Shown here one piece after another: positions 26,816 to 31,519 of a stretch of DNA of 48,191 bases. Source of the DNA: Desulfovibrio sp. (GTDB lineage: Bacteria > Desulfobacterota > Desulfovibrionia > Desulfovibrionales > Desulfovibrionaceae); the NCBI GenBank assembly GCA_031290615.1, contig JAITNF010000083.1, positions 1-48,191 of the forward strand, in the 5' to 3' direction. Position numbers and translations under genes: made by a program. The notes beneath the pieces were generated by a model. That model was not told the origin of the DNA. It made no database searches and saw only the letters and a list, made by a program, of their open reading frames with translations. Numbering within the stretch: position 1 is the stretch's first letter; each line of letters opens with the position of its first letter.

Positions 26816-27976
26816 TCAGGTTTTGTTCACGCATGTCCTGCCGGCTGGCCTGAACACAAGATGCGCGTCCCCGCCGTAAAGCCTTGTTTCGCAGAGCCGC
26901 AGGGAGAGAGCTTCCGCCACGCTCACGGACGCGCGACCGGTGAAAAGCGGCACGGCATCACTGTCGCCCAGAATTTTTGGAGCCAGATGCAGCCGGAATT
27001 CATCCACAAGACCTGCTTCAAGAAGCGAGAGTGCGAGCCTTCCTCCGCCTTCGCACAGCACATAAGGACAGACTGTTTCGCGCCGCATTTCCGACATCAC
27101 GGCGGCAAGATCCGCGCCGGCTTGCCGGGAGTGCCCGTAGCTCAGCACACGTACGCCCCCGGACCGGAGTTTGTCAGCCTGACTTGAGGCTGCGGCGGCT
27201 GGAGAGGTAAAAAAAAGCGTCTGTTCGGGACGTTCCGTGAGCAGATAAAAATTTTCGCAGACATCGGGCAGACGGGAGGTAATAATACAAGCCAGGGGTT
27301 GTGGCCCGTCGGAAAATTTACCCCGCGCCGTGAGATGGGGGTTGTCAGCACGAAAGGTACCGCCGCCCACTAGCACAGCGCCGCCGCAACGTCCCACTCC
27401 CGCGCGCCATTGATGCGTCAGGATCCGAGAGCTTTCGGAACTGATCCATCGTGAAAGGCCACCGCGCGCGGCAATGCGACCGTCCAAGGTTGCGGCCATT
27501 TTTAGCAGAACATAGGGACGGTCCGTCGTCTGCCACACAACAAAATCCGCGATCAGGTCGCGGCATTCATCCTCCAGTACACCTTCAACAATTTCAATGC
27601 CCGCCGTGCGCAGGATTGCGGTACCGCCCGCCGCGACGGGGTTGGGATCCCGCGCGCCAATAACCACCCTAGTTATGCCGGCTTGCAGAATCGCCTTGGC
27701 GCAGGGGGGCGTTTTGCCATGATGGTTACAGGGCTCCAGCGTCACCACAAGGGTTGCCCCATCCGTGGGCACACCCCTGACAGCCGCGTCTTTCAAACAG
27801 GCCACCTCGGCATGGTCCTGCCCGGCGGCGCGGTGAAAACCCCGCGCCACACCGCAGCCGTCACGCACCAGGACGGCACCCACCGTGGGATTAGGGCATG
27901 TCGAATAACGCCCCTGTTCCGCCACTTTCAGAGCTTCACGCATAAAGGAAACGTATTCTTCTTGCTCAGGAGTCAC
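26816..27976 (-). CDS. ribD: Bifunctional diaminohydroxyphosphoribosylaminopyrimidine deaminase / 5-amino-6-(5-phosphoribosylamino)uracil reductase
   Basis: Carries out the second and third steps of riboflavin synthesis. The N-terminal deaminase has CPNPTVGAVLV, the zinc motif HAEV (about residue 55) and PCNHHGKTPPC. The C-terminal reductase has YVLLKMAATLDGRIA and WISSESSR, with a later CEGGGRLALSLLEAGLVDE. The protein has 386 residues. The start is a GTG with no strong ribosome binding site; a later ATG at codon 12 is less likely because the family has residues before it. It is the first gene of the run. I see no FMN riboswitch ahead of it. Confidence 0.95.
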   Translation of the reverse strand: MTPEQEEYVSFMREALKVAEQGRYSTCPNPTVGAVLVRDGCGVARGFHRAAGQDHAEVACLKDAAVRGVPTDGATLVVTLEPCNHHGKTPPCAKAILQAGITRVVIGARDPNPVAAGGTAILRTAGIEIVEGVLEDECRDLIADFVVWQTTDRPYVLLKMAATLDGRIAARGGLSRWISSESSRILTHQWRAGVGRCGGAVLVGGGTFRADNPHLTARGKFSDGPQPLACIITSRLPDVCENFYLLTERPEQTLFFTSPAAAASSQADKLRSGGVRVLSYGHSRQAGADLAAVMSEMRRETVCPYVLCEGGGRLALSLLEAGLVDEFRLHLAPKILGDSDAVPLFTGRASVSVAEALSLRLCETRLYGGDAHLVFRPAGRTCVNKT

Positions 27977-28089
27977 GGTTTTTCCATATCCGGATTTGAG
28001 GGGCTAGACCAGCACCCCGAGAGTCTGTAGACTCGCGGCATCATAGCGCCACAGGTGACCATGTTCACTGGAAACCAGGGAGGCGGGTC

Positions 28090-28188
28090 ATGGGAACAGT
28101 ATGCCGTATCGGACTGGACATTGCAAAAAAAATTTTGAGAGGTTATGTCAATAGGCAAACGTTACATAATAAATATTGTATAAATTAA
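28090..28188 (+). pseudogene. IS110-family transposase start (second relic)
   Basis: A 32-codon frame, MGTVCRIGLDIAKKILRGYV, matches the opening of a different IS110 subgroup (IGLDIAKxxFQxH). It stops at 28188 in AT-rich DNA and nothing recognisable follows. It is a fragment only. It differs from the relic at 2341, so two separate insertions are implied. It marks the left edge of the AT-rich defence-gene graveyard. Confidence 0.5.
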
Positions 28189-28269
28189 AATATGTTATTG
28201 TTATTTTATAAATCGCCCAATTCAATCAAAAAATGGTGATATTCCCTTTGGGATCAAATAGAGATACGG

Positions 28270-29195
28270 TCTTACTTGGCTCAATGAGCGGCAGTTGAAG
28301 AAGATCGACGGGATTGCTGAATTGCGCTTTCTTTTCACATCCCCGTCGTTCGTGAATGAGAAAGCTCCGAAAAAACGCGAATTTTATATCCCTCGCTTGA
28401 ATCTTGAGCGCAGCCTGTACGGGACGAAATTTGAAATAAAACTTCGTAACGAACTTTCCCAAAAGGCCATCGCTCACGAATGCGCCAACTGGATACGAAA
28501 AAAGGTAAAATTCAGGTCAAACGCCACGCGGAAAAATATGGATGGTTTGCTGGTTGTTACAACAGACAGCAAAATCACCATATGCCTTTGAACAAATTTA
28601 TCACAGGTGGATATAGGTTGAGCGCGGCAATAACAGCTATCAACATAATAACGCGCTTTGAAGCTCCGGGCAGCAGCGAATTCATTCGACTGTTTGACGC
28701 CGTTTGTATGACAAGAATAAATTGCAGGACGTGACGGATGGAGTCGGAATCGTAGACGGCATTACAGCCACCTATAACGAAAAACCCACCACTTTCTTTA
28801 CTTCTTCACGCTTTATAACATTTTCAACGAGTTCCTTGATGATATTTCAGAGGACATACTGCCCAATAGTCACAGACTTCAAGGAAAGCAAGATTTGGAA
28901 TACTCTGTACAATTTTCAAAAAGACGCGGCCCTCGCCATCATTAACAAACTGAAGAAATACAACAACTGCATCCTTGCGGACAGCGGCTGTATCATACCG
29001 ACCTTTCACACGGGCACTGACTTTATGGAGGAAATAGGCAAGTTTCCGGAACGACTGAGGACTGTCTCCCCGCACCCCACTTGACCGATCTGAAAAACGC
29101 GATCAGCTACAACCAGATATACGCCGAACGTACACATCTTAACCTCGCGATATACATCCCTACCGACTTCCTGCTCCCAAGCGCGGCCAGATAAT
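28270..29195 (+). pseudogene. PLD-like nuclease/SNF2-type helicase relic
   Basis: Fragments in several plus-strand frames line up with one long protein. They are KKIDGIAELRFLFTSPSFVN, EFYIPRLNLERSLYG and KLRNELSQKAIAHECANWIR (phospholipase D-like part), then LNKFITGGYRLSAAITAINI and SEFIRLFDAV. Next is WNTLYNFQKDAALAIINKL with YNNCILADS, the helicase Q-motif region; the expected GLGKT of motif I is missing. Finally LTDLKNAISYNQIYAERTHL and LAIYIPTDFLLPS come from a later part. Frame changes and an internal deletion make it inactive. Proteins with this domain pair are known from defence islands. Function of the original is inferred. Confidence 0.6.
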
Positions 29196-29204
29196 AGACA
29201 ATGC

Positions 29205-29640
29205 ATATAGAACTGTATTAATCGATGAAATAGATAAGCGTTTACATATTCAGTTACAAAAATATGTTCTTCCAAATTTATTTAATCTTTTTCCGAACAT
29301 TCAATTCATCCTTAGTTCTCATTCACATTTTGTCGCTATGGGTTTGTTTGATAATTCACAAACTAAAGAATGAGCTCGCGGTCATAGACATAGATAATGA
29401 CGGCATTAAAACTGATCTTTCCGCAACAGAATTATTCAGTGAAGTGTATAATACAATGATTGATGAAAATAATTGTTTTAAGCAGTTGTATGGAAAAATA
29501 GTCTCTAAATTATATTCAAAACCTATATTATTTGTTAAGAATAAATATACTCAAATATATAAAATATCGTGGTTAAAACTCAATGCCATCCGGACGTGTA
29601 ATAGAGCCTCCAACAGAAGGCTGTTTGAGGCTCTTCAAAA
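29205..29640 (+). pseudogene. AAA-family ATPase relic (C-terminal half)
   Basis: The frame TVLIDEIDKRLHIQLQKYVL gives a Walker B motif. It runs on to FPNIQFILSSHSHFVAMGL, the D-loop and H-loop region of OLD/RecF-like AAA ATPases (SSHSP in the family, here SSHSH). A frameshift near 29365 leads to NELAVIDIDNDGIKTDL and EVYNTMIDENNCFKQLYGKI, the usual continuation. The N-terminal Walker A part is lost. Such ATPases act in several phage defence systems. Confidence 0.65.
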
Positions 29641-29674
29641 ACGCGTTTTTGGAAAGATTCCGTGATAATAAATA

Positions 29675-29812
29675 TACTTCGACGCGGACAGCAACAGCGT
29701 CCCGAGCATTAAGCGTTTTCTTTCAGAGCTACAATTCGACGGTATGGCGCCACAGTCAATAATGTTTTACAAAGATGTCGAGCATAGTCAGGAAGGAACG
29801 AAAAAGTCACCG
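29675..29812 (+). pseudogene. Type III-like DNA methyltransferase (Mod) fragment
   Basis: About 45 codons read VPSIKRFLSELQFDGMAPQS followed by IMFYKDVEHSQEGTKK. This pattern (PxxKRFLSE, then YxxVGHxQExxKE) occurs in Mod-type adenine methyltransferases next to their catalytic part. The downstream frame KPGRLLHRLLTLAN could be the altered KPxxLLxRLL segment. Catalytic motifs are missing. The assignment is by remembered family pattern only. Confidence 0.45.
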
Positions 29813-30083
29813 CATGGTTGGAAGCCGGGACGTTTGTTGCATCGCTTATTGACTCTTGCCAATCTTGTTAAGGAACGCATCCGTCACGCGAGGACGAAAA
29901 TAGTTACAAGTTTGAAGTTGCAAGTTACGAGAGAGAAATTGCAAAGGCATGACTGTATCAAATTGTCAAAGTTTGAACGTCTAGCGGAGAACAATGGACT
30001 TGACGGATAAATATACAAGCTGGTAAAGTTGTTTCTGCACTGTACTAAATTTCTATAAAATTTAGGCCATTAACCAACAATAG

Positions 30084-30383
30084 TTGGTAGAGCATTTGAA
30101 AAGGCAATACCACAGCAGTTTATACGAACATCTGGTTCTCTCCCGTGACAAAAAAGGTAATACGTTTGACCTAGGAAGGGCAACAGCTTGAAAAATCGCG
30201 CGATATGCTAAAAACCCTCTTGTTCTGGAATTTGTGGACGTGGAAGAAAAGTCTCTTTATACCGAAAACGACATGGAATCAGCGATCATCTCAAAATTAC
30301 AGCAGTTTTTGCTCGAACTTGACACAGGTTTCCTGTTCAAGTCCCGCCAAAAACGATTTTCGTTTGATGAAAAACAATACTGA
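30084..30383 (+). pseudogene. YhcG-type PD-(D/E)XK nuclease relic (DUF1016)
   Basis: A single frame reads LVEHLKRQYHSSLYEHLVLS, then RDKKGNTFDLGRATA, a TGA at 30189, and on to NPLVLEFVDVEEKSLYTEND and FLLELDTGFLFKSRQKRFSF. It matches the middle of DUF1016 proteins, where ExAIIxxLxxFLLELGxGF precedes the nuclease core. The frame ends just where the catalytic strand (DLVFYH) should come, so the core is lost. These nucleases accompany restriction systems. Confidence 0.65.
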
Positions 30384-30447
30384 AAGTAAATTGTTTGTAT
30401 TTGCGGACAGTAACGCCCGGTATGCACCCGGCTTTCTCCATACCTGC

Positions 30448-30540
30448 GGAGAGGTAGCGAAGTGGCCGTAACGCGCCCGACTCGAAATCGGGTTATCGCA
30501 GAGATGCGATACGTGGGTTCAAATCCCACCCTCTCCGCCA
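30448..30540 (+). tRNA. tRNA-Ser (anticodon CGA)
   Basis: The acceptor GGAGAGG pairs with CCTCTCC. The anticodon stem CCCGA/TCGGG holds loop CTCGAAA, so the anticodon is CGA. A long variable arm (TCGCA/TGCGA) marks it as a class II tRNA. The T arm GTGGG/CCCAC holds TTCAAAT, and CCA is encoded. It reads UCG codons. It flanks the decayed defence island on its 5' side. Confidence 0.96.
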
Positions 30541-31054
30541 AGAGCATACCCAGCCTGGTACGGACGAGTCCAAACTGCCTTGAAAATAAAAGAATTTTGA
30601 AAAAGACTTATCCGAACCCGGTTTATTTGATTCCATCAATGCCTGCTATGCGGGAGAATCTCTGTAAAAATATACCCTCATGTCCGTTCACGTGGAAGTA
30701 TGCCATGCCTAGTTGAACTGATTCAGCAAGCTTTTATCGCGCTATGAAAATTGCATTCCACATACTTGGCCTTACTCCATTTGGCTGCGGCAATCATTGC
30801 TTTGCCCCGAGCATTTGGCCGGTCATCTCTGGGTCAAGTACCTGAAGTCCTTTCTGCCGTCAGATCAGATGTGGGATGGGCAGACCAGACTGACATCCAG
30901 GTACACGATTACGCATCACCGCAACAAAAAAACTCCACCTGATCGAAATTTTTTTGTTGCCCGTAATTAACTTTTTTCTTCTTTTTGCCGATAAGTGAAT
31001 AAATGCGTTATTGCTGGAGCGTTTGCGATATTCCCCTGATTTTGGTGAACGACT
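30541..31054. other. Noncoding stretch between tRNA-Ser and the NlpC gene
   Basis: About 510 bases with only short unconvincing frames (for example LRQSLLCPEHLAGHLWVKYL in one frame, unplaced). It contains the 12-bp inverted repeat listed separately. The last 90 bases should hold the promoter of the NlpC gene. Confidence 0.4.
30921..30960. repeat. Perfect 12-bp inverted repeat with A and T tracts
   Basis: GCAACAAAAAAA (30921-30932) and TTTTTTTGTTGC (30949-30960) are exact reverse complements around a 16-base spacer. It could work as a bidirectional terminator for readthrough from tRNA-Ser, or be a leftover of a mobile-element end. Confidence 0.55.
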
Positions 31055-31519
31055 ATGCGAAATTATTTTTTTGCCCTGATTCTTGCCTTGTTGCTTTCAG
31101 GTTGTGGTTTTATACGTTCTTCCGATTCAAATATCGCGCCCCCCATAGCCCATAAGGTGGTCAATACGGCTTACAGTCAGATAGGCAAAAAATACCTCTC
31201 CGGCGGCACCTCGCCCGCCACGGGGTTTGACTGTTCCGGCCTTGTCTGGTGGGCCTACAAAAGGAACGGACTGCAAGTGCCCCGCAAGGCGGTGGAGCAG
31301 GCGTACGCCGGAGCCGCCATTTCGCCGCACAACGCACGCCCCGGAGATATTGTTGTTTTCCGCACTTCGCACAGTCCCAACGGCCTACATACAGGGCTCC
31401 ACGCTGGCGGTTCCATGTTCATACACAGCCCGCGCAAAGGTTCCGCTGTGCGTACGGAAAGCATGGAAATTCCATATTGGGGCAACAAGCTTGTTATGGT
31501 CCGCCGCGTTCTTCAGTAA
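31055..31519 (+). CDS. NlpC/P60 family cell-wall hydrolase lipoprotein
   Basis: A 154-residue protein with a lipoprotein signal (ALILALLLSGC, lipidated Cys17), so anchored in the outer or inner membrane facing the periplasm. The NlpC/P60 domain has the nucleophile in GFDCSGLVWWAYKRNG (about residue 60), HTGLHAGGSMFIHSPRKG with the catalytic His, and a polar third residue. Members cut peptide links in peptidoglycan stems. It stands alone, with no gene in the same orientation nearby. Confidence 0.88.
   Translation: MRNYFFALILALLLSGCGFIRSSDSNIAPPIAHKVVNTAYSQIGKKYLSGGTSPATGFDCSGLVWWAYKRNGLQVPRKAVEQAYAGAAISPHNARPGDIVVFRTSHSPNGLHTGLHAGGSMFIHSPRKGSAVRTESMEIPYWGNKLVMVRRVLQ

Follow-up and report, generated by a model that had tools for sequence, protein, structure and literature searches.

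The stretch from 28.1 to 30.4 kb of a Desulfovibrio sp. contig (JAITNF010000083.1, assembly GCA_031290615.1) holds broken defence-type genes beside a tRNA gene, and the question raised by this locus was whether they are four systems gathered at one site or pieces of a single system. The whole stretch of DNA analysed (48,191 nucleotides) is referred to as the window. The fragments are very probably the wreck of one operon, an extended type III restriction-modification (R-M) system (PLD-like/SNF2 helicase - DUF4391 - Mod - Res) with two slots for exchangeable genes.

State and borders of the locus

Between 28.1 and 30.4 kb, broken pieces of four genes were found, bounded by an IS110 start and a tRNA-Ser gene. 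All four defence-type fragments named in the initial annotation were recovered, far above chance expectation, and the plus strand was confirmed for all four genes. The stretch was AT-rich as described (40% GC; its flanks have 57% and 53%) and contained no long open frames, and the adjoining genes were intact. Sequencing error was considered as the cause of the frameshifts and rejected because RibD and LeuS next door are open at full length. The window copy is non-functional now; it is a dead locus, a fossil.

The left border was the truncated start of an IS110-type transposase (28091..28136, + strand, ~15 codons, translation MGTVCRIGLDIAKK), as the initial annotation had it, and was 77% identical over 52 bp to a second truncated start on contig C6 (G000:C6:6532-6583, L195), which reads FIGLDIAKNVFQ / VCFIGLDIAKNVFQ. 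The same genome search that gave these two truncated starts gave no intact IS110-type copy. The right border was an intact tRNA-Ser (CGA), placed by ARAGORN at 30448..30540 (+ strand), again in agreement with the earlier reading. A search for direct and inverted repeats around the locus returned only short pairs of low identity.

Helicase remnants

Three helicase remnants were placed on the plus strand. Remnant 1 (28298..28704) covers the PLD-like N-terminal domain, with a frameshift near 28.6 kb, and matched helicases of ~1090 aa: positions 28298-28627 were 62% identical to aa 61-171 of a 1092-aa helicase, and positions 28567-28704 were 52% identical to aa 154-198 of ~1090-aa helicases. In a genome search within Desulfovibrionaceae, positions 28262-28588 were 67% identical to helicases; the first piece matched helicases of ~1080-1130 aa in 12 of 199 genomes of the family, the window's own included, at up to 67% identity. 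Remnant 2 (28710..29006; 50% to aa 200-297) covers the junction to the SNF2 motor, with the Walker A region broken, and remnants 1 and 2 together gave E 6e-55 when intact relatives were used as queries. Remnant 3 (29025..29188) lies past an internal deletion of ~215 codons and matched the L122 helicase (78% to aa 513-530, 68% to aa 530-567). Helicase residues 61-297 and 513-567 thus survive as frameshifted pieces across 28298-29188.

The helicase pieces alone matched no Pfam, PADLOC or NCBIfam model. A family search of the fragments, proposed as a check, succeeded in part: the ATPase, YhcG and, weakly, Mod were recognised by models, but the helicase pieces were placed via relatives. The label "PLD/SNF2 helicase" likewise held for the PLD-like fold and the SNF2 helicase but not for the catalytic motif, as HxKxxxxD was missing in 95 of 99 relative helicases; the PLD-like domain is therefore probably not a nuclease. 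The model of the helicase N-terminal domain (moderate confidence, pLDDT 72) was searched with Foldseek, with SauUSI (7clg, 4e-5) and NgoAVII (4rct, 1e-4) as best matches and BfiI (2c1l) weaker.

Intact operons in other genomes

In Desulfovibrionales, the same helicase family heads an operon of helicase, DUF4391, type III Mod and type III Res. Genomes of 85,462 species were scanned by helicase alignment and the best 80 loci were taken; these named loci, being the best helicase matches, sample one helicase family, and span Bacillota, Bacteroidota, Verrucomicrobiota, Pseudomonadota, Planctomycetota, Actinomycetota, Synergistota and others. Altogether 106 loci were examined; in 68 of them the helicase was followed by 7.5 kb of sequence or more, and in all of these (68/68) the order was helicase-DUF4391-Mod-Res. 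The core families were SNF2/Helicase_C, DUF4391, N6_N4_Mtase and type III Res with RE_endonuc. The helicase was also found on 102 of 72,556 plasmids, including plasmids of E. coli and Acinetobacter and one archaeal plasmid, and the same operon order was present on pEC21Z137-115K (E. coli), pMsp65 (Acinetobacter sp. NEB149; here an IS separates Mod from Res) and pMETHO01 (archaeon Methanomethylovorans). DPPY was present in every Mod (90/90), and 76 of 78 Res proteins kept the D...(E/D)xK pattern. Tandem Mod pairs, possibly with two recognition specificities, were seen in some operons (L059, L108, L111, L120).

DUF4391 was modelled with confidence (226 residues, pLDDT 93.6), and a fold search gave no PDB match at E < 0.001; by this model, the fold is possibly new. 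The single PDB sequence match (E 6e-4, 67 residues) was to chain sc-apCC-6-DPH-NR, probably a designed coiled coil, and was set aside. DUF4391 can occur outside the operon: at L065 (13590-14249) it was found with no helicase, Mod or Res in the 20 kb covered.

Annotations split the operon into separate "helicase-related", DUF4391, methyltransferase and DEAD/DEAH genes. The component families are already known. Searches of the open-access literature for DUF4391 together with Mod/Res, and for RhuM or YhcG inside type III operons, gave no account of the operon, though one may exist elsewhere. DUF4391 was named there in one paper, in a table. Such genes are listed together, uncommented, for a Cronobacter element (PMC12757443).

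Mod and YhcG remnants

The type III Mod methyltransferase remnant (29586..29881, + strand) shared 59% identity with the L166 Mod across residues 315-422 of that protein (E 1e-28); by HMM alone the match was weak (MTase_III, 1e-6). Among the fetched loci, its best matches were all in Mod genes of the helicase-DUF4391-Mod-Res operon. The remnant of YhcG (DUF1016), a PD-(D/E)XK nuclease, follows at 30051..30380 (+ strand; YhcG_C 2e-11, PDC-S02 4e-21) in the position of slot-2 cargo, and was 46% identical over 112 aa to the YhcG of L039, which itself lies between Mod and Res. No DUF4391 remnant was left in the window, and intact relatives used as queries gave no Res match there; two of the four core genes are therefore ones that we infer for the window copy.

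Exchangeable genes

Extra genes were found at two insertion positions, slot 1 (helicase end to Mod) and slot 2 (Mod to Res). When extra genes of at least 180 aa were counted in the 68 loci, 22 loci had none; slot 1 alone was occupied in 15, slot 2 alone in 12 and both slots in 19. Across the 82 loci having Mod and Res, 90 inserted genes were counted, which formed 54 sequence clusters, 39 of them seen once. Named slot-1 cargo comprised AAA/OLD ATPases, AAA_13, Abi_C, Schlafen-type, GmrSD, Fic, D12 methylase and a Gabija-like OLD-TOPRIM + UvrD pair, with ATPases recurring; named slot-2 cargo comprised YhcG (8), RhuM (7), Schlafen-type (4), Fic (3), Bro-N, PtuA-PtuB, Shedu and Zeta-toxin-like genes. 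YhcG was the commonest cargo and, like RhuM (7/7), was always between Mod and Res (8/8).

Operons with closely similar helicases and nearly the same Res carried different cargo. Helicase identity was 96% for L061/L062 (cargo none vs GmrSD + Abi_2), 86-89% for L117/L121/L140, 86% for L041/L043 and 87% for L152/L157 (85-96% overall). Because such near-identical helicase/Res pairs carry different cargo, the frame is fixed and the cargo exchanged.

The intact operon of L179 (a Synergistaceae MAG) reads helicase - DUF4391 - AAA_13/AAA_21 ATPase - Mod - YhcG - Res, which is the window order; in the window the order helicase, slot-1 gene, Mod, slot-2 gene is kept. L172 resembles the L179 arrangement, with an SMC-like ATPase. 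Besides L179, YhcG followed Mod in L038, L039, L136, L143, L148, L166 and L172. The suggestion that the fragments are pieces of one multi-gene system is thus supported by L179, by the seven further YhcG operons and by the invariant core order. The intact helicase-ATPase-Mod-YhcG cluster that the initial annotation had proposed looking for does exist, in L179, but in another taxon and not at this Desulfovibrio site.

In a separate observation, a complete PtuA-PtuB Septu pair was found between Mod and Res in L046 (3042-13974), and the genome of L046 (G179) has a second operon, L038, with YhcG in the same slot.

The ATPase remnant

The AAA ATPase remnant (29176..29583, + strand; PtuA-type and AAA_21 models) is a frameshifted C-terminal part and is slot-1 cargo by position. 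Positions 29176-29373 matched the PADLOC PtuA-type model PDLC00268 (1.6e-18) and Pfam AAA_21 (6e-7), and plasmid AAA ATPases covered both frames of the remnant to ~29580 (E 1e-8). Past ~29585 the "ATPase" reading frame enters Mod, so its 3' part is Mod. The closest relative among operon cargo was a slot-2 gene, the PtuA of L046 (42% over 57 aa); the ATPases of L179 and L172 were not close in sequence. It is by position, and not by sequence likeness to slot-1 cargo, that the window ATPase is tied to the operon, because the slot-1 ATPases are no close sequence relatives.

That the ATPase piece might stem from a Septu (PtuA-PtuB) insertion of its own, with only the remaining pieces belonging to the operon, is rather unlikely. 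The best models for the piece are PtuA, and the intact operon L046 does have PtuA-PtuB as cargo; that pair, however, occupies the other slot, and two inspected plasmid relatives of the ATPase had no annotated HNH partner. Septu needs PtuA paired with the HNH protein PtuB, whereas the window has a PtuA-like piece (46.8 bits against the NCBIfam PtuA cut-off of 500) and tblastn found no PtuB remnant there.

tRNA-Ser site and genome reduction

The tRNA-Ser site, which had been proposed for comparison with related genomes, has no demonstrable role. Operon pieces were present there in none of seven relatives (0/7), and none were found at the NlpC sites of relatives. The surroundings of tRNA-Ser differed in all seven, and the junction of ribD, remnant, tRNA-Ser and NlpC (window 27976-31055) was not common to any relative checked. 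Since tRNA-Ser and NlpC lie apart in these genomes, a rearrangement breakpoint probably falls within 27976-31055. As for a tRNA-integrated island, a repeat scan gave no tRNA 3'-end repeat, the pieces lie 5' of the tRNA, and the tRNA-Ser loci of relatives are not syntenic.

Defence genes cluster in hotspots, and a true defence island would have formed here if four unrelated defence genes or systems had gathered independently at a tRNA-Ser hotspot and then decayed. An IS fragment adjoins the pieces, and the window ATPase is nearer to the PtuA of Septu than to any slot-1 ATPase, as such an origin would allow. It is nevertheless quite improbable: the helicase, Mod and YhcG pieces follow a fixed operon order on one strand, L179 and the YhcG operons weaken it, and tRNA-targeted islands less usually occupy the 5' side of the tRNA, where the pieces are found and where relatives have none. 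"Collapsed operon" is a better name for the locus than "collapsed defence island", which would imply four systems.

The genome to which the window belongs measures 1.59 Mb (92 contigs); other members of the genus are mostly 2-4 Mb. A second broken operon copy was found in the same genome on contig C92 (L050, 8364-9094), with a helicase C-terminus and a frameshifted DUF4391; it is closest to the G302 copy (69%), and its pieces run to near the contig end. Broken copies were also present in reduced relatives. In G269 (1.6 Mb, about 40 contigs; L051, 9540-19578) and G302 (L052, 9856-18321), the helicase and DUF4391 are broken, and slot-1 cargo (OLD-TOPRIM + UvrD in L051, D12 methylase + AAA in L052), Mod and Res are open. 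G321 (1,410,056 bases) yielded a DUF4391 scrap and no more. To judge by G269 and G302, a host can apparently do without the helicase and DUF4391 and suffer no harm; loss of Mod while Res is present is costly in R-M systems generally. These two genomes possibly show an order of loss, and the window copy may have gone further along the same path of decay. Genome reduction explains the wreck, and therefore no special role of tRNA-Ser is needed. Among termite-protist ectosymbionts, the R-M systems of Rs-N31 are all pseudogenes and ZnDsv-02 has 11 intact (PMC7608387).

A plain two-gene Mod-Res system lying by chance beside a separate helicase as well as YhcG and a Septu-type ATPase is highly improbable. 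In known cases a type III system needs no more than Mod and Res (PMC3874151, PMC4490356), and the two seem separable from helicase-DUF4391 because of the G269/G302 state, but all complete loci sampled have helicase-DUF4391 ahead of Mod-Res, with the same arrangement on the E. coli, Acinetobacter and archaeal plasmids.

Proposed function of the operon

As a single wrecked operon, the window copy would once have carried an AAA ATPase in slot 1 and YhcG in slot 2, and deletions and frameshifts during genome reduction would have removed DUF4391, Res and most of the coding sequence. By analogy with EcoP15I, Mod (a DPPY methylase) would mark host DNA and Res would cut unmarked DNA following ATP-driven sliding. 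The helicase, whose PLD-like domain is without the nuclease motif, and DUF4391 would form a putative non-cleaving motor/adaptor unit, acting on DNA with Mod. The cargo genes (nucleases, Fic, abortive infection) are putative backup effectors against phage that escape cleavage.

It is possible, if somewhat doubtful, that the intact system is an undescribed modular defence chassis, in which one operon unites a type III R-M pair, an SNF2 motor of pseudo-PLD type and DUF4391 as adaptor, and two slots hold interchangeable effectors under the control of the chassis (YhcG, RhuM, Schlafen, Septu, Gabija-like, Fic, Abi, GmrSD, Shedu). If the slots are real docking positions, their 54 clusters are a ready list of candidate defence genes. 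The fossil locus points to an operon that is widespread in bacteria and on plasmids, and DUF4391 is a core part of this common defence operon without a significant PDB fold match. Shrinking symbionts offer a natural order-of-loss experiment for its genes.

Comparison with known systems

Type III R-M systems (EcoP15I, EcoP1I) share both closing core genes with the operon. Its Mod is an N6_N4 methylase with DPPY, for which the best PADLOC model was MTase_III (up to 5e-241), and its Res matches REase_III over the whole length, with a ResIII motor and a RE_endonuc domain. The classical systems have two genes, whereas the operon adds the upstream PLD-like SNF2 helicase, DUF4391 and two slots for exchangeable genes. 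The PLD-type enzymes SauUSI, NgoAVII and BfiI share the fold of the helicase N-terminal domain, but differ in that nearly all operon helicases are without HxKxxxxD.

BREX-related Type-2 loci (DUF499-centred, with an HKD-SNF2 helicase, an N6-MTase and DUF3780) also combine an adenine methylase and one small DUF protein with a PLD-like + SNF2 helicase, and contain auxiliary and backup effectors (PMC12839542). The operon differs from them in having type III Mod and Res, and DUF4391 instead; DUF499 and DUF3780 were not among the core-gene matches or the listed cargo families. In DISARM, DrmD is partly resembled by the operon helicase, but the match is partial (154.7 bits against an NCBIfam cut-off of 610), and DrmA, DrmB (DUF1998) and DrmC were not among the listed core or cargo Pfam matches.

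Type I R-M loci can embed genes (PrrC, RhuM), and the AAA_13 genes of the operon are taken here to be PrrC-type. An accessory effector inside an R-M operon is common to both, as are RhuM and AAA_13. The operon differs from these loci in its type III frame, its two slots and its far wider range of cargo.
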